A stretch of 24,439 nucleotides of DNA from a virus. Below the pieces are notes generated by a model. That model saw only the letters and a program-made list of their open reading frames with translations. It had not been told where the DNA came from and made no database searches. This document shows positions 2,788 to 24,014 of the stretch, piece by piece. The stretch covers positions 1 through 24,439 of the IMG/VR virus record IMGVR_UViG_3300048924_000209; one strand, written 5' to 3'. Within the stretch, counting starts at the first letter, position 1. Each line of letters opens with the position of its first letter. Position numbers and translations under genes: made by a program.

Positions 2788-3449
2788 GCGCCAGGCCTGC
2801 AGCTATGGAGCGTGATCTTGTTCAGCAGCCACAGCCGATCCATGAACTTCTCGAACGTGTTCGAGTTGTCGTGCAGCTTGCAGTAATAGAAATATTCCAT
2901 GTCGAGGCTGATCGCCTGCCCCGCGCCTGGCGCCGTATCGAACGTGATGGTGTTCGCCACCGGCACCGAGGTGTCGATCGCGTAGAGCGTCGGGTCGAGC
3001 GGCGCCGCGGACGCGCCGAGATAGACGTTCACGCCGGCGTCGACATTGATATGCCCGACCGGCTCGGTCCCGAAATAGCCGTTGGCGCCAAAGGTCCGCG
3101 TGATCGGAAAGACGGTGGTCGCCCCATCGCCGACGCCGATCTGGTTACGATAGGCGCGATCGTCGTCGGGGTTCCGGTACAGGAAGCGACCGAGCGTGCC
3201 GGCAAGCGCGAGATGGAATCCCATCATCGTCCTGAACTCCAGCCCGGCGAGCGTTCCGCCGGCATGCGGGCCGTCGCGGAAAAAGGAATAGGTCAGCTCG
3301 AAATCGTGCAGCGGATATTGCGCCATGCCGACGTCGAGATCCGCGCCGGTCGTCGTCGTCGCGGACTGGTTGAAGAAGATCGGCGACCACTTCGAATTAT
3401 AGGTCATGCCGGCCAGAAGGTTGCGGCCGGGATAGACGGGCAATGTCAT
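2784..3449 (-). CDS. Distal tail / baseplate protein, DUF2460 family (GTA gp12-like)
   Basis: About 221 residues. A TTG three bases upstream would also be in frame, but the ATG at 3449 overlaps the tape-measure stop (TGATG) and is the better start. The N-terminal part (to about residue 80) contains AQYPLHDFELTYSFFRDG and GLEFRTMMGFHLALAGTLG, typical of DUF2460. The middle, from about residue 100, has the IGVGDGATTVFPITRTFG and EPVGHINVD segments common in this family. These proteins form the ring linking tail tube to hub. The adjacent tape measure and hub genes support the call. Confidence 0.87.
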   Translation of the reverse strand: MTLPVYPGRNLLAGMTYNSKWSPIFFNQSATTTTGADLDVGMAQYPLHDFELTYSFFRDGPHAGGTLAGLEFRTMMGFHLALAGTLGRFLYRNPDDDRAYRNQIGVGDGATTVFPITRTFGANGYFGTEPVGHINVDAGVNVYLGASAAPLDPTLYAIDTSVPVANTITFDTAPGAGQAISLDMEYFYYCKLHDNSNTFEKFMDRLWLLNKITLHSCRPGA

Positions 3450-6400
3450 CAACCTACCTTCAACACGCCGTCGCGCGTCGCGCGGTTGATCATCGCCACG
3501 AGATCGCTCGCATGGTCATGCAGCTGCCGCCGGAACGGCTTGGTGTCGCCCTGCAGCTGCGGCGAATAATGCAGGTGCGTATCGCCGCGCTTGCCACCGT
3601 CGCCGGTGCCGCGGCCGACGGCGGCGAGCAGCTGCGCGTTGTCGGCCGCCGGCACGATGCGCTCGCCCTTGTGGACCTGGGCGATCATGTCGGACGGCAG
3701 GCTGTTCGTGCCCTTGTCGAAGCTCGCCAGCGCGCCGAACGCCTCGACGGCGACGAAGGTCGTCGCGGCCGCCACCGCGCCGAGCACCGGCCCGACGACG
3801 GGAATGCCGGCCATGGCATGATAGGCCGCGGCGGCCGCGGTCGCGGCGTGGCTGGTGATTTCCTTCATGTTGTGCAGCGACGTGATTGCGGCCGACTGCG
3901 ACGCGCCCGCCGCGGTCGCGACCACGCGCGCCTCGTTGCCAACGACGGTCGCGCCGGTCTTGGCTGCCTCGGCCGCGACATGGGTGCCGGTCTGCAGCGC
4001 GAGCTGCGCCCGCTCGGCCGCCGTCATCAGCAGGTGCTGCGCGATCCACCGCGTGACGAATCCCGTCAGGCGCTGCTCGATCGTCCCCAGCGCCGAGGAA
4101 TAGACGTTCCGGACCGTGTTCGACCAGGTCTGCGTACCGGTCGCCATCCGGAGGAACCCGCTAGTGCCGGCCGCCACCATGCCATTGATCGACTGGGCAT
4201 AGGCCTGGCGCACGGCGAGCATGTCCTGAAGGCTCTTGGCCTGGGTCTGCGCCTCTATCTCCGCCCGGCTATTGGCATAGTCCTGGTCGGCCTTCTTCTT
4301 CAGGTCGGTCAGGTCGCGGTAGCGCAGTGCGTCGCTGCCATATTTCGCGGCGGCGTCCGAAATCGCCTTGTCGAGAAGTTGCGTCTCGAAAGCATGGAAT
4401 TGCTCGAGGTCCGTCATCTTCTGTTCGTTGAGCTGGGCGTTGATCTGGCCGATGCGTACCGCGGCCGAGGCCTCGGCGATCGGCGACAGCGAACCGCCCG
4501 TATCCGCCCGGATTACCGAGGTGGCGCCCTGGGCGTCGGCCTGCCGGCTCTTCTGCTGCCCCTCGATCGCCCGCCGGCGCGCCTCGATCTGCGCTTCCAC
4601 CGAGCGCTTCGTCTCACTCAGCTCTTTCTCGTCGTGCTGGTGCTGCGCGCGCTCCATGTCGCGATAGGCATTCTGGTATTCGGCCGACTGCTCGCCGAAC
4701 TTGCCCTTGATATAGGCGAGCTTCTCGGTCCAATCGGCCTGTTCCTTCGACCAATTGTCGCGATCGGCCTCGATGCGCTCGTTCAGGCCAGCGAGATGCT
4801 GCTGGTAATCGTCGCGCGCGAGGCTCTTGTTCGCCTCGTAGATCTTGGCCTGGACCTCGATCCAGTCCTTTGACCCTGATTGGGTGAGCGCCAGCTTGGA
4901 CTGCCAGAACGCAAGCTCGCCCGCCGTCTGGTCCTTGAAATATTCGCCCGACGCGATTTCCTGCTGGTGCAGCTGCTCCTGCCACTGGGCAACCGCGCCC
5001 GGCCCTTTCGAGCCCTTGGCCTTGCCCGTCGCCGCACCCGACTTGTCGGCCGCGTCGGAGGCGCGCTGCGCGGCCTCATCCGGGCTCATCACCTCGCCCG
5101 CGACGTTCAGCATTGCCTTCTGCTGCGTCAGGCTCTCCACACCGGCCTTGTCGTGCTTCCGGCGCGCCTCGCTGATCTGCGCGTCCAGCTGGGCAATCTG
5201 GTGCGCCTTTTCGGCGGTCGGAATGAAGGTGCTGAGCGCCCGGTGATAATCCTCAAGCGCCTGGCGATCGCGCTGCACGGCCGCGGAGTGCGCGCCGCTG
5301 AGCGCGGTGTCGGCAACGAGCGCGGTGTCGAGGCGCTTGATATCGTCGACCAGTTCCTGGCGCCGCGCGGCATCGCGCGCTTCGGGCGTTGCGCCGGTCA
5401 GGGCGGCGCCGGCGTTCGACTGGCCCGTGAGCTGCGCCCGGTTGCTCCGGACGCTCTCCGCCGTCTTGGCGGCCGCCTCGCCCTTCTCAACGTCGTGCGT
5501 GACCAGATTATAGATGCGATATTTGTCAATGAACTTGTCGAGGGCGTCGGTGGAGCGGCCGAGCCAGTTCCACAGGTTGCTCAACCCCGCCGCCATGTCG
5601 CCGAAGGTCGAGTTCAGGCCGACGCCGGCCGATTTCGCCTCGCCCATGGCGCGCTGCAGCTCGCCAAGGATGATAGCGACGGCCTTGTCCTTGTCGCCGG
5701 CTTCGACCGCGACCCTGATCTGCTCCATCTGGGAGGCGGACAGGATGCCGAGTTTCTCATTGAGCGACTGGGCACCCTTGATCGGGTCCTGCATCGCCGC
5801 GGCCAGCTCTTTCTGAGCATCGGCGGCCTTTTCACCCGTTAGCGCCGCATAGATCTGGACGTCGCCGGATAGCGAGGTGATCGCGGCCTGCGAGCGCACG
5901 CCGGCGCCGGCGAACGCGGTCGCCGCCTCCGTCGACGCGGCGATCGACTGCCCGCTCCAGCTCGCGGCCGCCGCGCCGGCTTCATCGAGCTGCGCGGCGG
6001 TCATGCCCGATGCGGCGGCAACGCCCATCGTGCTGGCGGTGAGCTTGTCCTGGCCGTCCTGGTACTGCTTTTCGGCCACCGTCGCCGCGACGAAAGCGGC
6101 GGCGCCGGCAGCCACGCCAATATTCAACGGGGTGAGCAACGCGGTCAGCTTGGCCATACCGCCCGCCATGCCGCCGCTGTCCATGCTCAGGACCTCGGCG
6201 CCCTTGTGCGCCTCCAGGGCAAAGGCACGGAGCGGCGATTGGCCTGCAAGGACGGCATCGGTGAACCGCATCACCGCCGATTGCGCAGTGATCGTCTGCG
6301 CGCGATTCAGCCCCAGCGCCGCGGTGTGGCCGTGCGTGTCGTTGGTGAGCGCCTTGAGCTCGCGATCGACACCGCGAATTTGCGCCTGGGCCTTCGCGAC

Positions 6401-6580
6401 CGCATCGCCAGCCGCCAGCATCGATGTCCGGAGCTCGTCGGTCATCCCGCCGGTCTTGGCGGTTTTGGCGAAGTCGTTCAGATCCTTCTGAGCGCTTTTC
6501 AGCTCCTGGGACAGGATCGCCCGCTTCGCCTGCAGGTCCGCGATGTCTGCCGTGATCGAGACGGCAATGTTGTTCGACAT
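3449..6580 (-). CDS. Tail tape measure protein
   Basis: A 1043-residue protein, the longest in the window. It is mostly predicted helix, with a coiled-coil N-terminus (residues 10-45), further charged Glu/Lys/Gln-rich coils around 530-760, and Ala/Gly-rich hydrophobic stretches around 130-170 and 880-950. The C-terminus has GTNSLPSDMIAQVHKGERIV, a motif common near the end of phage tape measures. The family sets tail length and is ejected with the DNA. At about 0.15 nm per residue the tail would be roughly 155 nm, an estimate by rule of thumb. The start ATG at 6580 is 63 bases after the frameshifted chaperone stop, with AGAAAGGG upstream as a plausible ribosome site. Confidence 0.93.
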   Translation of the reverse strand: MSNNIAVSITADIADLQAKRAILSQELKSAQKDLNDFAKTAKTGGMTDELRTSMLAAGDAVAKAQAQIRGVDRELKALTNDTHGHTAALGLNRAQTITAQSAVMRFTDAVLAGQSPLRAFALEAHKGAEVLSMDSGGMAGGMAKLTALLTPLNIGVAAGAAAFVAATVAEKQYQDGQDKLTASTMGVAAASGMTAAQLDEAGAAAASWSGQSIAASTEAATAFAGAGVRSQAAITSLSGDVQIYAALTGEKAADAQKELAAAMQDPIKGAQSLNEKLGILSASQMEQIRVAVEAGDKDKAVAIILGELQRAMGEAKSAGVGLNSTFGDMAAGLSNLWNWLGRSTDALDKFIDKYRIYNLVTHDVEKGEAAAKTAESVRSNRAQLTGQSNAGAALTGATPEARDAARRQELVDDIKRLDTALVADTALSGAHSAAVQRDRQALEDYHRALSTFIPTAEKAHQIAQLDAQISEARRKHDKAGVESLTQQKAMLNVAGEVMSPDEAAQRASDAADKSGAATGKAKGSKGPGAVAQWQEQLHQQEIASGEYFKDQTAGELAFWQSKLALTQSGSKDWIEVQAKIYEANKSLARDDYQQHLAGLNERIEADRDNWSKEQADWTEKLAYIKGKFGEQSAEYQNAYRDMERAQHQHDEKELSETKRSVEAQIEARRRAIEGQQKSRQADAQGATSVIRADTGGSLSPIAEASAAVRIGQINAQLNEQKMTDLEQFHAFETQLLDKAISDAAAKYGSDALRYRDLTDLKKKADQDYANSRAEIEAQTQAKSLQDMLAVRQAYAQSINGMVAAGTSGFLRMATGTQTWSNTVRNVYSSALGTIEQRLTGFVTRWIAQHLLMTAAERAQLALQTGTHVAAEAAKTGATVVGNEARVVATAAGASQSAAITSLHNMKEITSHAATAAAAAYHAMAGIPVVGPVLGAVAAATTFVAVEAFGALASFDKGTNSLPSDMIAQVHKGERIVPAADNAQLLAAVGRGTGDGGKRGDTHLHYSPQLQGDTKPFRRQLHDHASDLVAMINRATRDGVLKVG

Positions 6581-12891: not shown

Positions 12892-14262
12892 TTATGCCAG
12901 CGCCGGCGCCCAGCGCACGAACTGGATCACCGCGATCGCCGCGTCATGGCGGACCTGGTGATCATGCTCGGCGATGGCGCGGATGATCGTCTGGTCGTTC
13001 TGGAACGCCGAGATGGCGGTTCCGCTGGCATCGATATAGGTGCCCTCGCGAGACACGGCGAGCTCGAGGCTCATCGAGTCGAGGATCATGTCCTCCGACA
13101 TCTCGACCAGGAAAATGAACGAGCAGTCCGTCTGCGTCCCGTCGGCATTGTAATAGTTCGTGCCGATCTGGGTGGTCTTCTTGAACGGATAGCCGAGCAG
13201 CTTCCCATCCTTCAGCTCGTCGCGATAGACGTAGACGCCAAGCGAGTTCTGGACGTTATAGAGGTAGTTATAGGAGCGCGGGTGCATGAACCAGGTGCGC
13301 TTGAAATCCGGCACATTCGCCGTGTCGAGCTTGTTCACCGCACCGCCCAACTCCGCGGCAACAGTTGCCAGGGTATAGTTGGCCGTCGACGTGATGAAGT
13401 TGCCACCGACCGCCGCGGTCGAATTGCCAACGGTCGAATAAACGGCCGCCTTGCCCCCACTGGAAGCCGCGAAGCCGTTCGCGAAGGACAGGAAGCCGCG
13501 CGGGGTGTCCTGCGTGCCATCGCTGAGGATGAAGTTGAGATCCTCCGTCAGAGCGATGATCTTCACCAGATCGTCGCGCACGAACGCGTCGACCGCCGGG
13601 TCCGCATAGCGCATCATGTCGTTCGACACCGGCACCAGCGCGGTCAGCTTCTTGAAGCTGGCGACGATCTGGTTGAGCGTCTGCTGCGACGAGACGATCT
13701 TGCGCCCCTCCGCACCATACCCGGCGGTGGCGGCCGACGCCTGGCCGGGCAGCGTCATCGTCCCGCGCGGCATCGGGATCACCCGGGGTCCTGCACCGCG
13801 AACGACCGCGAGCGGCCGCAGCAGCTCGATGATCTCGTTCATGTAGTCGGGCGGAACGATGAAGCCGCCGGCGGAGCCGGACGAGGTCACCAAGGCACGC
13901 GTGACCGGGTGGTTCTCGCCATACAGCTCGATCGAATCCGTCCGGGCAACGCTGATGATGCCGTTGGACCGGCCGAGCATCTTCATGGCGCCGCCGATGA
14001 CGAGGCTCTTGTCGTTCTGATAGGCGTCGCGGTTAACGGTAGCCGGGGTCGTAACCACCTCCTGGCCTGCGACCGGCTGGGCGGTCGAGGCGGCCAAGGA
14101 CTGCACGTCCTTGGCGCGGAGGATCTGGGCGTCGACGTCCATGACGCCCCGCTTCAGCGATTCGTATTCGGTCACTTCTTCCGGGGTGAGGGTCGGCTTG
14201 TCGGCAACCACCTTGAACGCGTCAAAGGCGGCCGCCCGCTTCTTGAGCAGCTCTACGAGCAT
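12892..14262 (-). CDS. Major capsid protein, HK97 fold
   Basis: About 456 residues from the ATG at 14262, which has GGAG six bases before it. Another in-frame ATG at 14274 gives four more residues but has no ribosome site at good distance. The N-terminal 70 or so residues (LVELLKKRAAAFDAF, LTPEEVTEYESLKRG) form the coiled delta/scaffold-like domain of HK97-type capsid proteins, normally removed by the prohead protease. The mature part includes GGFIVPPDYMNEIIELLRPL, PRGTMTLPGQASAAT and DDLVKIIALTEDLNFILSDG, all typical of the E-loop, spine and P-domain regions. It follows the protease/scaffold gene as expected. The call is firm; the exact cleavage site is not obvious. Confidence 0.95.
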   Translation of the reverse strand: MLVELLKKRAAAFDAFKVVADKPTLTPEEVTEYESLKRGVMDVDAQILRAKDVQSLAASTAQPVAGQEVVTTPATVNRDAYQNDKSLVIGGAMKMLGRSNGIISVARTDSIELYGENHPVTRALVTSSGSAGGFIVPPDYMNEIIELLRPLAVVRGAGPRVIPMPRGTMTLPGQASAATAGYGAEGRKIVSSQQTLNQIVASFKKLTALVPVSNDMMRYADPAVDAFVRDDLVKIIALTEDLNFILSDGTQDTPRGFLSFANGFAASSGGKAAVYSTVGNSTAAVGGNFITSTANYTLATVAAELGGAVNKLDTANVPDFKRTWFMHPRSYNYLYNVQNSLGVYVYRDELKDGKLLGYPFKKTTQIGTNYYNADGTQTDCSFIFLVEMSEDMILDSMSLELAVSREGTYIDASGTAISAFQNDQTIIRAIAEHDHQVRHDAAIAVIQFVRWAPALA

Positions 14263-14334
14263 ATTGGGCTCCATCTGGGGGAATGGCGCGCCTCACGGCG
14301 GGCCGGCTACCGTTGCCCAAGCGGCGGGTGGGGC

Positions 14335-15617: not shown

Positions 15618-16949
15618 TCAATTCTCTGTGGCTGCATCCTGCGAGGTTGCCTGCGTCCCGCCGGTACCGGCGCCACCATCCCCGACCGTGCCGCCCTTCG
15701 GCTTCCCCGCGCCATCCGGCGCCTGGCCGGTGATGTTCGAGCCCTCGGCCGCCATGTTGGTGGGCATCATCAGGCGATCGCCGCCAGGCAGCGGCTTCTT
15801 CCCATCGACGAGCCGCTCTTCGTTCTGTGTCGTCTTGCCGGACAGGATGTTGATCCGCGACACGTTCGCCTGGGTCATCACGTCGGCGCGCAGCAGCTGG
15901 CCGAGGTCGCGCTCCAGGAACAACTCCTCCTCATACAGACCGAAGGTCCAGGCGAAGCGCTGCTCGAAATTGACGATCCGCTGCGTGATCGCCGAGTTCA
16001 CGTAATCCTGATCCTGCGCGGCAAGGTTCTGACTGGCGCCCTTGGCATCGGCGCCGACTCCGACCTTGTGTGGCGGCACGCCAAAGAACCGGCACACCTC
16101 CTCCGGCTGCATCTTGCGCTGCTCGATGAACTGCAGATCGACGGAGGTCAGCTGCAGCGCCACCGGCTCGATGCCGTCTTCCAGCACCACCGTCTTACCG
16201 GTGTTCTGATATCCGGCGTGCAGATCGTCGAACTGCGTTTTGAGGCGCTTCGCCGCGCCATCCGATAATTGCTTTGACGTCTTGAGCCAGGTTGAGGGTC
16301 GCGCGCCGTTTGCGATGAAGCGGTTCGCCTGCTGCTCAAGCGCCATCGAAAGCCCGATGGTGTCGCGCGCCATGCCGATCGTCGACACGCCGACGAGCGA
16401 ATTGAACGACATCCCGCGCAGGTGGAAGATATCCTCCGACGGGATCGCGACCGGGAAATCGCGCAGCATGGCGATCTGCCAGAGGCCGATGCGATTGACG
16501 TTATAGAAAATCGAGCCGTCACCCGCTTCCAGCACCATTACGGCGTCGGGATTGATCGGGATGAGCTCGATCGGATCACCGCGGTAGTTCCGGCGAATAG
16601 CCGCATAGGCATTGCCGCGAAGCAAAAGGCCGACCCACATCTGCCGGTCAAATTCGAACCAGGTCTGCTGGCGATTGGGCCGCGCGAATAGGTTATTGAG
16701 GAGATGATGTGTGACCCGCTCCTTGCTGCCATCGGCAAGTTTAGCGAAAATACCCGGCGAGCAGCGCGCCAGGTCGGTCGAAAGTCGATCGACGCAGCCG
16801 TAAACGGTCGAGACCGTCATCGCCGAGGCCTGGCTGATCTGCGCACCAGACGCCGACGCGATCGATCCCAGCGGGGGAATCATGCCATAGGACGGCGTGC
16901 CGGCGCTGGCGCGCTCCATGGGCGCCGCCATGCGGCTCAACATTCCCAT
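15618..16949 (-). CDS. Portal protein, HK97 family
   Basis: A 443-residue protein. The frame is open further upstream, but the ATG at 16949 (MGMLSRMAAPMERASAG) overlaps the stop of the small membrane protein (TGATG). Family features include MTVSTVYGCVDRLSTDLARC near residue 40, WFEFDRQMWVGLLLRGNAYA, LIPINPDAVMV and the clip/stem region VDLQFIEQRKMQPEEVCRFF-GVPPHKVG. The C-terminal ~40 residues are Gly/Thr/Asp-rich and likely disordered. The portal forms the 12-subunit ring through which terminase drives DNA. Its place between terminase and protease is standard. Confidence 0.94.
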   Translation of the reverse strand: MGMLSRMAAPMERASAGTPSYGMIPPLGSIASASGAQISQASAMTVSTVYGCVDRLSTDLARCSPGIFAKLADGSKERVTHHLLNNLFARPNRQQTWFEFDRQMWVGLLLRGNAYAAIRRNYRGDPIELIPINPDAVMVLEAGDGSIFYNVNRIGLWQIAMLRDFPVAIPSEDIFHLRGMSFNSLVGVSTIGMARDTIGLSMALEQQANRFIANGARPSTWLKTSKQLSDGAAKRLKTQFDDLHAGYQNTGKTVVLEDGIEPVALQLTSVDLQFIEQRKMQPEEVCRFFGVPPHKVGVGADAKGASQNLAAQDQDYVNSAITQRIVNFEQRFAWTFGLYEEELFLERDLGQLLRADVMTQANVSRINILSGKTTQNEERLVDGKKPLPGGDRLMMPTNMAAEGSNITGQAPDGAGKPKGGTVGDGGAGTGGTQATSQDAATEN

Positions 16950-17137
16950 CAGCCGGATTTCCGAGCAGCCAACCAGGCGCCACCAAGAAGGAACAGCCCT
17001 CCAACGATGGGGCCGGCCGGATGATAGGCGAGGTTTGCGCCATAGGTGATCAGGGCGGCGCCGGTCAGGGCCGCCGCATCCTGCATGAAGCTGGAAACGA
17101 GGCTTGCGGCGCGCTGCCGGGTATCCGGATCGATCAT
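16949..17137 (-). CDS. Small two-helix membrane protein between terminase and portal
   Basis: A 62-residue protein with two hydrophobic segments, about residues 22-40 (DAAALTGAALITYGANLAY) and 46-60 (GPIVGGLFLLGGAWLA), ending in basic residues. The ATG at 17137 is chosen because GAGG lies six bases before it; a GTG at 17149 overlapping the terminase stop is the other option and would add four residues. Not recognised by family. The form recalls holins, but its place in the packaging module argues for a membrane or morphogenesis role. Function open. Confidence 0.75.
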   Translation of the reverse strand: MIDPDTRQRAASLVSSFMQDAAALTGAALITYGANLAYHPAGPIVGGLFLLGGAWLAARKSG

Positions 17138-17145
17138 CGCTGGCC

Positions 17146-18924
17146 TCACAATACGAGAAGGCCGCGCGTCTCATAGAGCGAGCGCCGCGCCTCTGGGTTG
17201 GTTGCCATCACGGTCACGGCGTCGAACAGCGCCATCGCCGGATCGATCTTCGCGTCGCCGGCATTCTGCTTGGTGGCGCGGATGGCCGTGGCCGTATTCT
17301 CAATCTTCAGGTTGGAGACGCACCAGTCCATCATGGCCTGGTCGGCATGGACGAGCGTGCCATTTGCCAACTTGCGTTCCGCCGTCTTTAGCGCGTTCAT
17401 CATCGCGTAGCCCTGCGCTGCGCCGATGACGTAATTGCTCCCGGAATCCCGGTTTTCCTGAGTTATGCCGACACTGGCCAGCGCATCGATCATTTCGCCG
17501 AGGCCAGCTGGATCGACCGCCACGCAGCAGAGAAGCCCGGCGTCCTTGATGCGGACGATGATCTCAAGGATCGCGGCGACATCGGCCGGGAGACCTTCAG
17601 TCATCTCGCCGTTTTCAAGGATCGTAAGTTCGCCTGCGTCCTCGAGATCGTGGAGCTTTTCGACAATCGTCATGCGGCGGTCGAGGACAACCTTGTGGGC
17701 CCAGGCATAGCTCCATGAAAGCCAGCGCTTGACGCGCTTTTTGCCGCCGGACGCTTCCTGAGATTCCTCTTCTGATGCCGTTTCTGCGGCTACCTCGATC
17801 TCCTGAGGTTCGCGGCCGAGGACGGTGAGGCCATGGAGATCATCCAGACCGCCGCCATCCAGGCCGACGATGATTACCTCGCAGCGCTCGATAATGGTAT
17901 CGAGCGTGATGGTCGGGTCCGCGCGGTCCTTCCAGAATTCGGCGCCGACCCAATTGTCGGAACGCGCGCCCATGCCGGGCTCGATATTAAGGGACTTGGC
18001 GAAGAAGCCGACGAGCGACTTTTGCCCCTCGCGCTTCGCTTCCTCATAGTCATCAAGCAGGGATTGCTCATCGACTGAGGCGCCAAGGTTCGGGTTCGGA
18101 ATGTAGAAGTTCCGAGGATCCTTGTAATCCTCGGATTTGACCATGTGGGGCGGGAATTCGTAGAGAAATCCCATTGAGCGAGGGACGATAATCTTGCCGT
18201 CGCGGATATCCCTAAAGCGCCGAAGCCATTCGAGAAAGACCCCTTCCGGCGGATCGTCGGCCTGCGTCGTCAGCGCGATTACGAACCCCTCGGGCCGACT
18301 CTTGAGGCCGCCCATCGCCTCACGCATCATGTTCCTGGCGTTAGGGCGCTTCCCGAACAACCATAGTTCATCGAACAGGACGCCGGTCGATTTTCCGCCA
18401 GCAACTGTCTCGGAATCCGCGGCGAGGATCTTCAACTGCGCCTTGGTGAACCGATGCTCGATCAGCCTCTGGTGCGCGACTGGCTTCAAGATTCGCTTGA
18501 GCTCAGGATGCTCCGCGACGAAGTCCATCGCCGGCTCAGCTGAATTCTTCGCGACCTCGATCGTCGGCGCGATAATCGTGTACTGGGCCGAGTGGCGCTC
18601 GTTGCGCATCAGCTCCGTCAGCATGATGCCGGCAGCGCGGGTGGATTTCGTGTTCTTCTTGGCGATCAGCTCGAAGAACTTGTTGATTTCCCGACGACCA
18701 GTTTCCGGATTGTACGAGCCGAAAACCGCCCGGGGTAGGTCGAAGGTCCAGTCGCGCCCAATATCGCCGAAGGTGGGCTTCCCGATCATGTCGACGATCG
18801 GCAAGTCCTTGAAAATGGCAAGGCCGGCTTCAGCCTCCTCCGGGAATAGGGGCTCGCACGGCATCAGCGACCGGCGCCCAACAATCCTTTCCTCCCAGTC
18901 TAGGCAGGCGGTCGACCATTCCAC
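17146..18924 (-). CDS. terL: Terminase large subunit (HK97-type)
   Basis: A 592-residue protein, GTG start at 18924, 2 bases after the small terminase stop; WSTACLDWEERIVGRRSLMP at residues 3-22 is the usual N-terminus, which supports the GTG. The ATPase has a Walker A-like LIAKKNTKS at 86-94, Walker B VLFDE at 182-186 and a coupling ALTTQ at 217-221. The RNase H-like nuclease has acidic residues at D356 (VGLDGGG), D471 (AVDPAG) and D568 (ALFDAV). An acidic then lysine-rich insert (about 377-399, ETASEEESQEASGGKK) lies inside the nuclease domain. It cuts and pumps the genome into the prohead. The neighbouring small subunit and HNH protein complete a packaging set. Confidence 0.95.
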   Translation of the reverse strand: MEWSTACLDWEERIVGRRSLMPCEPLFPEEAEAGLAIFKDLPIVDMIGKPTFGDIGRDWTFDLPRAVFGSYNPETGRREINKFFELIAKKNTKSTRAAGIMLTELMRNERHSAQYTIIAPTIEVAKNSAEPAMDFVAEHPELKRILKPVAHQRLIEHRFTKAQLKILAADSETVAGGKSTGVLFDELWLFGKRPNARNMMREAMGGLKSRPEGFVIALTTQADDPPEGVFLEWLRRFRDIRDGKIIVPRSMGFLYEFPPHMVKSEDYKDPRNFYIPNPNLGASVDEQSLLDDYEEAKREGQKSLVGFFAKSLNIEPGMGARSDNWVGAEFWKDRADPTITLDTIIERCEVIIVGLDGGGLDDLHGLTVLGREPQEIEVAAETASEEESQEASGGKKRVKRWLSWSYAWAHKVVLDRRMTIVEKLHDLEDAGELTILENGEMTEGLPADVAAILEIIVRIKDAGLLCCVAVDPAGLGEMIDALASVGITQENRDSGSNYVIGAAQGYAMMNALKTAERKLANGTLVHADQAMMDWCVSNLKIENTATAIRATKQNAGDAKIDPAMALFDAVTVMATNPEARRSLYETRGLLVL

Positions 18925-21011: not shown

Positions 21012-21085
21012 TGGCGGGGGCCAGATTTGAACTGGCGACCTTCAGGTCATGACCCTGACGAGCTACCGGGCTGCTCTACCCCACG
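21012..21085 (-). tRNA. tRNA-Met (CAT), initiator-like
   Basis: The complement of 21012-21085 folds as a cloverleaf: acceptor 1-7 CGTGGGG with CCCCGCC, D-arm GAGC/GCTC, anticodon stem TCAGG/CCTGA around loop GTCATGA, T-arm GCCAG/CTGGC with TTCAAAT. The anticodon CAT is at 21049-21051. Initiator marks are an unpaired C1-C72 and A11:U24 in the D-stem. The stem has A29:U41 in place of the first of three G:C pairs. Unusual points are G32 and G37 in the loop, a U3-G70 wobble and no encoded CCA. It lies on the same strand as the late block, between the NusG-like gene and the structural genes. Confidence 0.85.
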
Positions 21086-21117
21086 TCCGACGATTTCAGG
21101 TAGCCTTCGGAATTCGC

Positions 21118-21135
21118 CGGAAGCGCGTGCTTCCG
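21118..21135 (-). other. 7-bp hairpin between the NusG-like gene and the tRNA
   Basis: CGGAAGC-ACGC-GCTTCCG on the minus strand, 33 bases before the tRNA 5' end and about 60 after the NusG-like stop. It has no T-run; a tRNA processing element or an antitermination-sensitive pause site is possible. A further 5-bp hairpin with loop TTGA sits over the NusG-like stop at 21189-21202. Confidence 0.4.
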
Positions 21136-21193
21136 TACGGGAGATGACGCGCGCAAGGAAATCTATTCCCAGATCAACAGCGTCGACAGCCGC

Positions 21194-21877
21194 TCAAGCG
21201 GCAACTGGCGTCTGATCTATAACAACGGGAAGAATCTGCCAAGCCTCTATCGTGATGGCCCATGTCCCGCCGAACACGACACGCGCCGACTTGCCGTCGC
21301 TGCTCTCGATCACGCCGACCATGCCGGCGAAAGCAGGGTAATCCGCCACGCGCACCCTGTCGCCGGCAGCAAACCTGCGACGTTCCGAGCGAAGCGCCTT
21401 TAACCTGGCAGCCTTGGTGCGCATCGCCGCGGCGCGTGCACGGCGTTCCTCGTCACGCGTCTCGCATTCCCGAAGTGCAGCAATGATTTCCGCCTGCTCC
21501 CTCTCCTCAGCGCGTAACCCGTCGATCTGAGCATCGCCAACCAGCGGCACGCGCCCAGCGTGGCGGAAGATAGAAAATGACGGGTGTGGACTGACTGCAG
21601 CGACCGACGCAATCGCGAGCTCGCCCAGGTGCACGGCGCGGGCGAACACGAGAGTGGGCATGATCGGCGCGTCAACGTCGATCGTCGGACGCTTTCCACC
21701 GGGGAGCAGGCGGGCATGAGCTCGGACGCGCCGCATCACGCGCTCTGGCGTCCATACATCGAAGCCAGCTTCCCGCAGCGACCGCGCCAGCGGTAGCGTC
21801 TTCGCGCCTGTCGTTCGCAGGATGATCCAGCGATCGGCCGCCGCACCATCCCGTTCATCCCGCCCCACCATTACCAT
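21194..21877 (-). CDS. NusG/RfaH-like transcription elongation factor (phage antiterminator candidate)
   Basis: About 227 residues from the ATG at 21877. A second ATG at 21871 has better spacing to GGTGGGG and may be the real start; a TTG at 21892 is less likely. Residues 16-118 look like an NGN domain (DRWIILRTTGAKTLPLARSL, then GFDVWTPERVMRRVR, then PIMPTLVFARAV). Residues 122-168 form a charged coil. Residues 170-222 form a KOW domain (FAAGDRVRVADYPAFAGMVG, VVFGG). NusG family proteins bind RNA polymerase and change pausing and termination. A separate NusG paralogue next to a long operon usually acts on that operon, as RfaH and LoaP do. Here it is the first gene of the leftward late block. 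The family call is good; the antiterminator role is inference. Confidence 0.82.
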   Translation of the reverse strand: MVMVGRDERDGAAADRWIILRTTGAKTLPLARSLREAGFDVWTPERVMRRVRAHARLLPGGKRPTIDVDAPIMPTLVFARAVHLGELAIASVAAVSPHPSFSIFRHAGRVPLVGDAQIDGLRAEEREQAEIIAALRECETRDEERRARAAAMRTKAARLKALRSERRRFAAGDRVRVADYPAFAGMVGVIESSDGKSARVVFGGTWAITIEAWQILPVVIDQTPVAA

Positions 21878-22118
21878 TTCCCCACCCAGCAAACCTAAAA
21901 GAACATACCTAGAACGACGCGATTTCGCTATCCGCTCGAACGTCGCACCGCGGCGGCCTTGGCGCGCGCCGCCTCGGCATCGTCCGGCCGTCCCATGCGG
22001 TCGTACAGCGCAGCGCTGGCTTCGAACGCCGCGGCCTGGTCGGCGGCGGGTACGCCTACGACGACGCCATTAATCGGCTTGCTGTCGGCCTGGTCGAGTG
22101 CCTCCGCCGGGTGCCGGC
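21878..22118. pseudogene. Divergent junction with gene-like frames lacking starts on both strands
   Basis: On the minus strand a frame is open from 22182 to a TAG at 21928-21930 and ends in convincing protein sequence (AADQAAAFEASAALYDRMGR, then AEAARAKAAAVRRSSG), but it has no ATG, GTG or TTG before the Met of DRMGR. On the plus strand a frame ends GYAYDDAINRLAVGLVECLR...VPA with a TGA at 22120-22122 that overlaps the GTG of the next gene, again with no start after the TAG at 21910. The two are codon-for-codon antisense, so at most one is real. Either would be a truncated remnant. AT-richer bases at 21893-21915 carry a TAGGTATGT/TAGGTTTGC near-repeat. Confidence 0.45.
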
Positions 22119-22328
22119 GTGAATAAGTGGATCGACTGGCCCGGCGGCCCGTGCCCGGAGCCCGCCGGGACCAAGGTGAATTTCACCACCAAGGTGACCG
22201 GGCGGCTCCCCGTGAAGCTGCGGGATGAGCTGGAGGCCGAGATCCACGACGTCGCGGACCTCGAATGGGAGTTCCCGCGGCTCCGCCACAACGTCTCTGC
22301 CTATCGTCTTGTCGAGGTGGCAAAATGA
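22119..22328 (+). CDS. Small phage protein with W-GG-CP motif
   Basis: A 69-residue protein from the GTG at 22119, starting (M)NKWIDWPGGPCPEPAGTKV. The N-terminal pattern 'W-I-D-W-x-G-G-x-C-P' is one I recognise from small proteins in many phages, and supports this start over the GTG at 22098. No strong ribosome site is visible; the GTG overlaps an upstream TGA, so translation may have been coupled to a gene now lost. The remaining part (RLPVKLRDELEAEIHDVADL) is helical. First intact gene of the rightward operon. Function unknown. Confidence 0.7.
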   Translation: MNKWIDWPGGPCPEPAGTKVNFTTKVTGRLPVKLRDELEAEIHDVADLEWEFPRLRHNVSAYRLVEVAK

Positions 22329-22693
22329 GGTTGGCGCGCTCCGCCTTTCAGACCCGCAAGCCGCGCCGCGCCGGTCGCCCGGCATGGAAGTGCGCCGACG
22401 AGTTCCGTCGCTGGCTGCGCAAGCTGCCGTGCGCGAAGTGCGGCCACGTCGGCGACGACGCGAATCCGATCGTCGCCGCGCATGTCGATCATGCGGGCGG
22501 GAAGGGCATGGCGACCAAAGTTGCCGACAGGCACAGCCTACCGCTCTGCAATGACTGCCATACCGAGCAGCACCGTGTCGGCTGGATGACCTTCGAAAAG
22601 GGCCTGCCGATGGCCGACGCGGTTGCCCTGGCTGGCGTCTTCTGGGTCGAATGGCCGGGCCGCCTTCAATGGGAACGGGAGTTGGCGGCGTGA
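22325..22693 (+). CDS. HNH / Ref-like zinc nuclease (DUF968-like)
   Basis: A 122-residue protein. The ATG at 22325 overlaps the previous stop (ATGA). Zinc site candidates are C36-x2-C39 (LPCAKCGH) and C75-x2-C78-H79 (LPLCNDCHTEQH), with H53 and H56 (VAAHVDHAGGKG) at the catalytic position and a GMATKVADRHSLPLC segment. This matches small phage nucleases related to Ref and DUF968, which cut DNA, often in recombination or repair. It differs from the packaging HNH protein in spacing. Activity and substrate are inferred. Confidence 0.82.
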   Translation: MRLARSAFQTRKPRRAGRPAWKCADEFRRWLRKLPCAKCGHVGDDANPIVAAHVDHAGGKGMATKVADRHSLPLCNDCHTEQHRVGWMTFEKGLPMADAVALAGVFWVEWPGRLQWERELAA

Positions 22694-23536: not shown

Positions 23537-23784
23537 AACCTACCCATGGAGGCTACCCCGATGCCAAGCCGAAGCGCCGCTGCCATCCCATCCATCTGCA
23601 AATCGCAAGGGCCAGCGAGGAGCACGATATGTGGCGGCGCCGGTTCGCGGCGGTCAGCAGCCTCAAGGCCTTCGATGACCGCCCGCCGGAATTCGCTGAC
23701 CGCGACGGCAGATGGAGCATGGCCGAGCTGCTGAACTACATGGCCAGTGCTTGCGGTTTTGCGCGCACCGAGGGGCGCGAGTGA
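23533..23784 (+). CDS. Small hypothetical protein
   Basis: An 83-residue protein. The GTG at 23533 overlaps the previous stop (GTGA). It begins MKPTHGGYPDAKPKRRCHP and has a helical core (ARASEEHDMWRRRFAAVSSL, WSMAELLNYMASACGFA). No motif recognised. Codon use and overlaps match its neighbours. Confidence 0.65.
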   Translation: MKPTHGGYPDAKPKRRCHPIHLQIARASEEHDMWRRRFAAVSSLKAFDDRPPEFADRDGRWSMAELLNYMASACGFARTEGRE

Positions 23785-24014
23785 TGGCTGATATCGTCGA
23801 TCTCGCAAGCGAGCTTGAGCAAGAGCACCTGGCGCGCAGCATCCGTGCTGCCCGGGTTCCTATCCCTGTCGGTGTTGCCGGCGAATGCGAACAGTGCGGG
23901 GATGACATGCCCCGCCTGATCGAGGGCCGCTGCGGGTTCTGTAGGGACGGCAGGCGCCGCCCTGCCGTCGCCGTCCTCACGCTCGACCAGCTCGCCGCGG
24001 AGGGTCCGCTATGA
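23784..24014 (+). CDS. TraR/DksA-like zinc-finger protein
   Basis: A 76-residue protein. The ATG at 23784 overlaps the previous stop (TGATG). A four-Cys zinc finger, C35-x2-C38 and C50-x2-C53 (GECEQCGDDMPRLIEGRCGF), follows an N-terminal helix (IVDLASELEQEHLARSIRAA), the layout of short phage TraR proteins. TraR binds the RNA polymerase secondary channel and alters promoter choice without ppGpp. The usual 'R-R-x-A-x-P-G' between the Cys pairs is replaced by a shorter, different loop, so the match is partial. Confidence 0.75.
   Translation: MADIVDLASELEQEHLARSIRAARVPIPVGVAGECEQCGDDMPRLIEGRCGFCRDGRRRPAVAVLTLDQLAAEGPL

Follow-up and report, generated by a model that had tools for sequence, protein, structure and literature searches.

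A NusG paralogue gene, a promoter-like signal and a covarying leader RNA form a candidate late-gene antitermination cassette in sphingomonad phages

Introduction

The described systems closest to the locus analysed here are found among the specialised relatives of NusG and among the antitermination systems of phages. LoaP, a NusG paralogue acting on the dfn and mln operons of Bacillus velezensis, antiterminates only if the leader of the operon contains an RNA hairpin (PMC12691694). Its element consists of a single small UNCG hairpin, and the operons it serves are antibiotic operons. UpxY paralogues act in the leaders of their own operons, the Bacteroides capsule operons, these leaders being situated upstream of upxY. 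RfaH, which antiterminates long operons and carries the hydrophobic NGN patch P-N-Y-L-F, is brought in by the DNA element ops, and its gene lies apart from the operons it controls. In phage lambda, the gene of the regulator Q lies upstream of the late operon, with the late promoter pR' at the gene end and the leader next; Q is unrelated to NusG, and qut is DNA. Structured RNAs head long operons in the case of HK022 put, EAR and conAn, of which the put RNA needs no phage protein. To our knowledge, the known phage late switches (N, Q, gp39, put) are not of the NusG type. A pairing of RNA with protein has been described for conAn (PMC8955417).

The stretch of DNA analysed here, referred to as the window, is a viral record of 24,439 bases and represents a fragment. 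It contains a gene for a NusG paralogue and, as in the case of LoaP, an RNA in the leader of the presumed target operon. In contrast to LoaP, this RNA comprises about 110 nt and four hairpins, the operon is a phage late operon, and a putative promoter is found where the regulator gene ends. UpxY, a paralogue that acts in the leader of the operon encoding it, provides the best NCBIfam match, but here the RNA is located downstream of the gene. The fold and a hydrophobic NGN patch (P-T-F-V-F) are shared with RfaH, whereas the element found here is a structured RNA adjacent to the gene. The order of regulator gene, promoter and leader is that of lambda Q/pR'/qut, though with a NusG paralogue and an RNA as its components, while a NusG-type partner has not been described for put, EAR or conAn, and the RNA found here has no Rfam match. 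We consider it likely that the locus constitutes a Q/pR'-like antitermination cassette for the late genes, in which the leader RNA would load the paralogue onto RNA polymerase.

Results and discussion

The NusG paralogue and its gene

The preliminary description had placed an open reading frame at 21194..21877, which was confirmed on the minus strand, with an ATG start codon at 21877, a stop at 21194 and an extra in-frame TTG at 21892. Single-sequence searches of Pfam and the PDB with the 227-aa product gave almost no matches. The PHROGs family phrog_6386, annotated as 'transcription antiterminator', was on the other hand matched by the protein with E 1e-16, and also by 48 of 48 relatives. An AlphaFold2 model computed from the 48-sequence alignment A2 (pLDDT 93.7) shows a beta-alpha NGN domain followed by a helix spanning residues 115-163 and a five-stranded barrel, with the C-terminal domain modelled in the beta-barrel form only. 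The NGN-like domain, predicted to bind RNA polymerase, covers residues 16-113 (21539..21832, minus strand) and contains W17 and the stretches EAGFDVWTP and PILPTFVFA, which are conserved in alignments A1 and A2. It is joined by a long, basic, helical linker of 49 residues (115-163; 21389..21535, minus strand) to a KOW domain at residues 172-217 (21227..21364, minus strand), for which the A2 profile matched the KOW domains of SPT5 and NusG in the PDB.

Comparison with NusG and RfaH by model and profile, the check proposed at the outset, bore out the predicted order of NGN, linker and KOW. NusG and RfaH ranked first in a Foldseek search of the PDB, where the matches are at the level of single domains and whole-chain TM-scores are low, since the relative placement of the domains differs. 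The PDB profile search with A2 retrieved SPT5, NusG and RfaH, and hhalign aligned the family profile to host NusG with E 1e-6. With an NGN domain followed by a KOW domain, the protein is a member of the NusG/Spt5 superfamily. The NCBIfam models for UpxY, RfaH and NusG were matched by 43, 18 and 12 of the 48 members, respectively. The UpxY model (NF033644) gave the window protein 24.1 bits, below its cut-off of 100. The RfaH model (TIGR01955) left it unmatched at E <= 0.01 while matching 18 of 48 members (best E 1e-9), and the LoaP model (NF033641) also left it unmatched and detected two of the 48 members weakly, the best with E 0.005.

In each of the ten host genomes checked, a single Pfam NusG gene was present, at a locus apart from the family gene. 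The housekeeping NusG of most Sphingomonas genomes was matched by the family profile (E ~5e-5) at the same places as Pfam NusG. Since the profile finds both genes and the Pfam NusG sits elsewhere, the phage protein represents a NusG paralogue encoded separately from the NusG of the host. BFVD already contains predicted phage proteins named RfaH or NusG, which means that the mere existence of such a paralogue in phages is no novelty, and phrog_6386 is itself an already annotated, though uncharacterised, family of NusG type. A NusG-type phage antiterminator had initially been regarded as unusual, but the protein taken by itself is not new. The long linker, which had been singled out, is real in the window without defining the family, as around half of the members carry a short linker of 18-47 residues and the rest one of 51-62.

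Distribution and the downstream late operon

More than 70 relatives were collected from viral contigs and genomes, for the most part Sphingomonas prophages; those from genomes all belong to Sphingomonas or Sphingobium. No relative was detected among 50,697 phage records (isolated phages) or 72,556 plasmids, and a sample of 385 alphaproteobacterial genomes, searched for relatives beyond the Sphingomonadaceae, yielded only G001 (Sphingomonas immobilis) itself and one weak match. Judged only by these relatives, the host of the window's virus would be a sphingomonad. Literature searches, with few papers examined in full, returned no paper on a phage NusG system of this type.

To the left of a tRNA-Met gene that follows the paralogue gene, and on the same strand, the window encodes an HNH endonuclease, a large terminase early in the late operon (TerL; 17146..18924, minus strand; phrog_9, E 2e-101), a portal protein (15618..17174, minus strand; phrog_12, E 1e-91; true start probably further in), a protease, a major head protein (12892..14274, minus strand; phrog_10, E 3e-47) and, near the far end of the operon, a tape measure protein (3449..6580, minus strand; phrog_24, E 2e-8). 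The orientation shared with the late genes, already noted from the window, thus applies to terminase, portal, protease and capsid genes. It extends to the relatives, where every recognised TerL (25 loci), portal (34), protease (17) and capsid gene lies downstream of the family gene on the same strand. The TerL proteins of relatives outside the window are only ~22-52% identical to that of the window, which indicates that the cassette is tied to the late operon and to many packaging modules rather than to one. Upstream genes were co-directional in 42 of 50 loci according to a rough ORF model, while they are divergent in the window. The divergent genes of the window encode an HNH-like protein (22265-22693, plus strand) and a DksA-like zinc-finger protein (23712-24014, plus strand).

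A conserved structured RNA at the end of the gene

Comparison of the downstream regions by blast revealed conserved non-coding stretches immediately past the stop codon. In the window they correspond to a structured RNA of about 110 nt (21094..21204, minus strand) with four hairpins, delineated by covariance models and covariation. P1 (21189..21202), predicted by folding, is the hairpin GCCGC-TTGA-GCGGC, whose loop includes the stop codon, and the same hairpin straddles the stop codon in most loci. It is followed by P2 (21146..21184), a long irregular hairpin containing the internal loop GATCTGG...CCTTGCG, conserved in type A RNAs, by P3 (21118..21135; CGGAAGC-ACGC-GCTTCCG), both taken from the covariance alignment, and by the mini-hairpin region P4 (21099..21112; TTCCGAAGGCTACC), identified in the alignments and closed in relatives by UNCG, GNRA or GAA loops; all four are on the minus strand. 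A strand of type A RNAs, often GCTCTT, resembled a boxA, but this assignment was rejected, since the strand pairs within P2 and covaries (GCTCT, GTCCT, GCCCT) as part of a helix.

A first covariance model (R1), built from 11 seed loci including the window with the structure set by hand, located the element at the gene end in approximately 30 non-seed loci when 63 loci (0.95 Mb) were searched, and a second model (R2) built from 44 sequences recovered it in further loci. The window RNA scores 82.9 bits with R1 and 85.1 bits with R2. In the 44-sequence alignment (A8), 87.5% of cells pair compared to 72.0% after shuffling, and changes on both sides occur in 21 of 25 pairs. The covariation score of 0.345, against 0.137 for shuffled alignments and <= 0.09 for slid partners, leans towards the structure to which A8 was fitted; plain MAFFT alignments, not fitted to any structure, gave 0.320 against 0.184 and 0.280 against 0.120, with slid partners at <= 0.14. 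The RNA has no Rfam family, the tRNA being the sole Rfam match in the window and six relatives; the EAR model was also unmatched.

Across 295 Sphingomonas genomes, R2 gave 41 matches in 38 genomes, and 35 of the 41 adjoin a family gene. Most family genes lacking an RNA match in this strict genome scan gained one when their locus was searched alone. The six matches without an adjoining gene (L147-L152) are of several kinds. L148 (4839-5097) holds the RNA with a broken copy, of which only a fragment of the NusG-like gene is left; the RNA at L147 (5602-5712), without an intact gene, looks like part of a prophage remnant; L149 and L150 are regions where the late genes of the window were not found; and the matches in L151 and L152 were discarded as probably due to chance, lying inside unrelated coding genes. 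A further leader-like match of 24.8 bits was seen in L071 (9703-9811, minus strand), on the other strand and ~1.1 kb past the gene, and may be due to chance or represent a second element.

The hairpins at 21118, 14335 and 12870 had been proposed as terminators, but a scan for intrinsic terminators returned no site at any of them and no more sites than in shuffled sequences. The first of these hairpins does exist, at 21118-21135; it has no U-tract and is P3 of the leader RNA. Neither a conserved intrinsic terminator nor a clear excess of terminators just past the leader was detected, and the target may therefore be Rho-dependent termination or pausing.

A promoter-like signal near the end of the gene

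A sigma70-like pattern, cTTGGCR-N17-TAnAgn with the -35 variants TTTACA and TTTCCT, was found upstream of P1, at the 3' end of the gene or close to it. Using a generic sigma70 score, a promoter-like pair was present in 39 of 48 loci, compared to 1.8 +/- 1.3 loci (maximum 6 in 300 rounds) when the coding stretch was recoded synonymously and 0-2 of 48 loci for any other 72-nt window; as this score was settled on with the sequences already in view and the loci are related, the exact odds should not be over-read, but the contrast is nevertheless very large. The spacer measures 17 nt in 35 of 40 cases. The distance from the -10 element to P1 is 29 nt in 17 loci, including L025, where the -10 element falls past the stop codon. 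The stop codon itself varies in position between 15 nt after the start of P1 and 50 nt before it. Measured from P1, the -10 element shows a scatter of 7.8 nt, as against 15.8 nt when measured from the stop codon. The promoter thus keeps a steady distance to the RNA and not to the stop codon, which argues that the late transcript probably begins with this RNA as its 5' leader; at the commonest spacing, the implied start lies ~10-20 nt upstream of P1.

In the window, the putative late promoter comprises a -35 element TTGGCA inside the gene (21237..21242, minus strand) and, after a 17-nt spacer, a -10 element TAGATC (21214..21219, minus strand), with a predicted start at about 21205-21209. An alternative -10 of the same promoter, TATAGA (21216-21221, minus strand), would have a 15-nt spacer. 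The distance from -10 to P1 is shorter than the commonest one, and the promoter of the window itself does not rank with the best ones, the generic scan having left it unlisted. Taken across the family, the pattern suggests that a promoter at the gene end is in use.

Possible mechanism and alternative explanations

According to the scheme that we favour, the NusG paralogue would be produced ahead of late expression or in its early phase, RNA polymerase would initiate at the promoter in the 3' end of its gene, and the folded leader P1-P4 would be transcribed first. The paralogue would then recognise the leader RNA together with the elongating polymerase, displace host NusG by means of its NGN domain and remain on the polymerase, which would resist pausing and termination over the ~20-kb packaging, head and tail operon. 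The termination being resisted would probably be Rho-dependent, given the lack of an excess of intrinsic terminators. A NusG-type fold, a place upstream of the late genes, a promoter-like signal and a covarying RNA adjoining the gene, all read from sequence, are consistent with binding of the paralogue to both leader RNA and RNA polymerase and suggest processive antitermination as the outcome. The role of late antiterminator, proposed earlier for the paralogue, gains strength because of the conserved promoter and leader RNA, both of which the preliminary description had missed. A point against this scheme is that the upstream genes are co-directional in most relatives, where the late genes could also be supplied by read-through from upstream.

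The chief rival scheme assigns the main work to the RNA, which would itself be the antiterminator, binding and modifying RNA polymerase in the style of put and EAR, the paralogue being a helper or processivity factor. The leader RNA accompanies the paralogue gene almost always, however, whereas the put RNA works without a phage protein, and we regard this scheme as unlikely. It does have in its favour that the leader is bigger and more complex than the LoaP hairpin, that a transcript from the putative promoter would begin directly with it, and that two-part systems of RNA and protein exist, such as conAn (PMC8955417).

The position of P1, which usually straddles the stop codon, together with a likely ribosome-binding site and start codon within ~30 nt in some loci, could also mean that the RNA, as a 3'-UTR or 5'-UTR, controls translation or mRNA stability of the paralogue or the first late gene, with the paralogue acting elsewhere or on host Rho. 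This is improbable in our estimation, since the distance of the element is steadier to the promoter than to the stop codon and unrelated first genes follow it, the window having a tRNA and no reading frame at this place. A DNA function, whether in packaging (as a cos or pac site) or as some other DNA signal close to the terminase, with a coincidental promoter, would fit the distance of 0.5-4 kb from element to terminase in many loci. Its base pairs are nevertheless maintained via compensatory changes, the P4 loops swap between UNCG and GNRA, as is typical of RNA hairpins, and the element adjoins a regulator gene instead of the terminase, the terminases being very different, all of which makes such a function highly improbable.

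Favouring antitermination by a paralogue loaded from the leader RNA, we think that, on balance, the locus represents an undescribed two-part class, in which a paralogue gene ending in a late promoter is coupled to a new ~110-nt leader RNA that recruits its product, and which would serve as a general late switch of Sphingomonas temperate phages, swapped as a cassette among otherwise unrelated phages. A universal elongation factor would seemingly have become an antiterminator specific to phages, equipped with a promoter and an RNA address of its own. The cassette also adds an RNA family absent from Rfam, and could yield a portable read-through tool for alphaproteobacteria.

Linker length, RNA type and multiple cassettes

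Long linkers occur with type A RNA and short linkers with type B, concordantly in 47 of 47 cases when the RNA type of L029, set by hand, is counted. Since approximately four changes in the tree account for this concordance, it argues only weakly for a direct contact between protein and RNA and provides no independent proof. The N-terminal ~45 residues of L002 are near-identical to those of L004, L016 and L024, while linker, KOW domain and RNA type differ; in these mosaic genes, the three seem to be exchanged as a unit. The natural pairs of protein and RNA variants make recognition directly testable.

G001 carries two family genes and, on a third contig, a further leader RNA (C21, C11 and C15), from which it follows that a single cell can harbour several such cassettes. 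Their presence in one genome makes cross-specificity testable.

tRNA genes near the leader

The tRNA-Met (CAT) gene of the window (21012..21085, minus strand), detected by ARAGORN and by the Rfam tRNA model (52.1 bits), starts 9 nt past the RNA element and has an initiator-type D arm (AGCAGCCCGGTAGCTC) and an unpaired position 1-72. A phage-borne initiator tRNA within a late leader is unusual. A tRNA-Met is carried at the same place by two distant phages, that of the window (21012-21085, minus strand) and L006 (8749-8825, plus strand). It follows the element in these two only, and a part for the tRNA as a component of the system was rejected; it is probably cargo. In L075, genes for tRNA-Thr and tRNA-Gly are located ~515 and ~595 nt past the stop codon of the NusG-like gene, which resembles the situation in Stx phages, where tRNA genes can follow the Q/pR' region.
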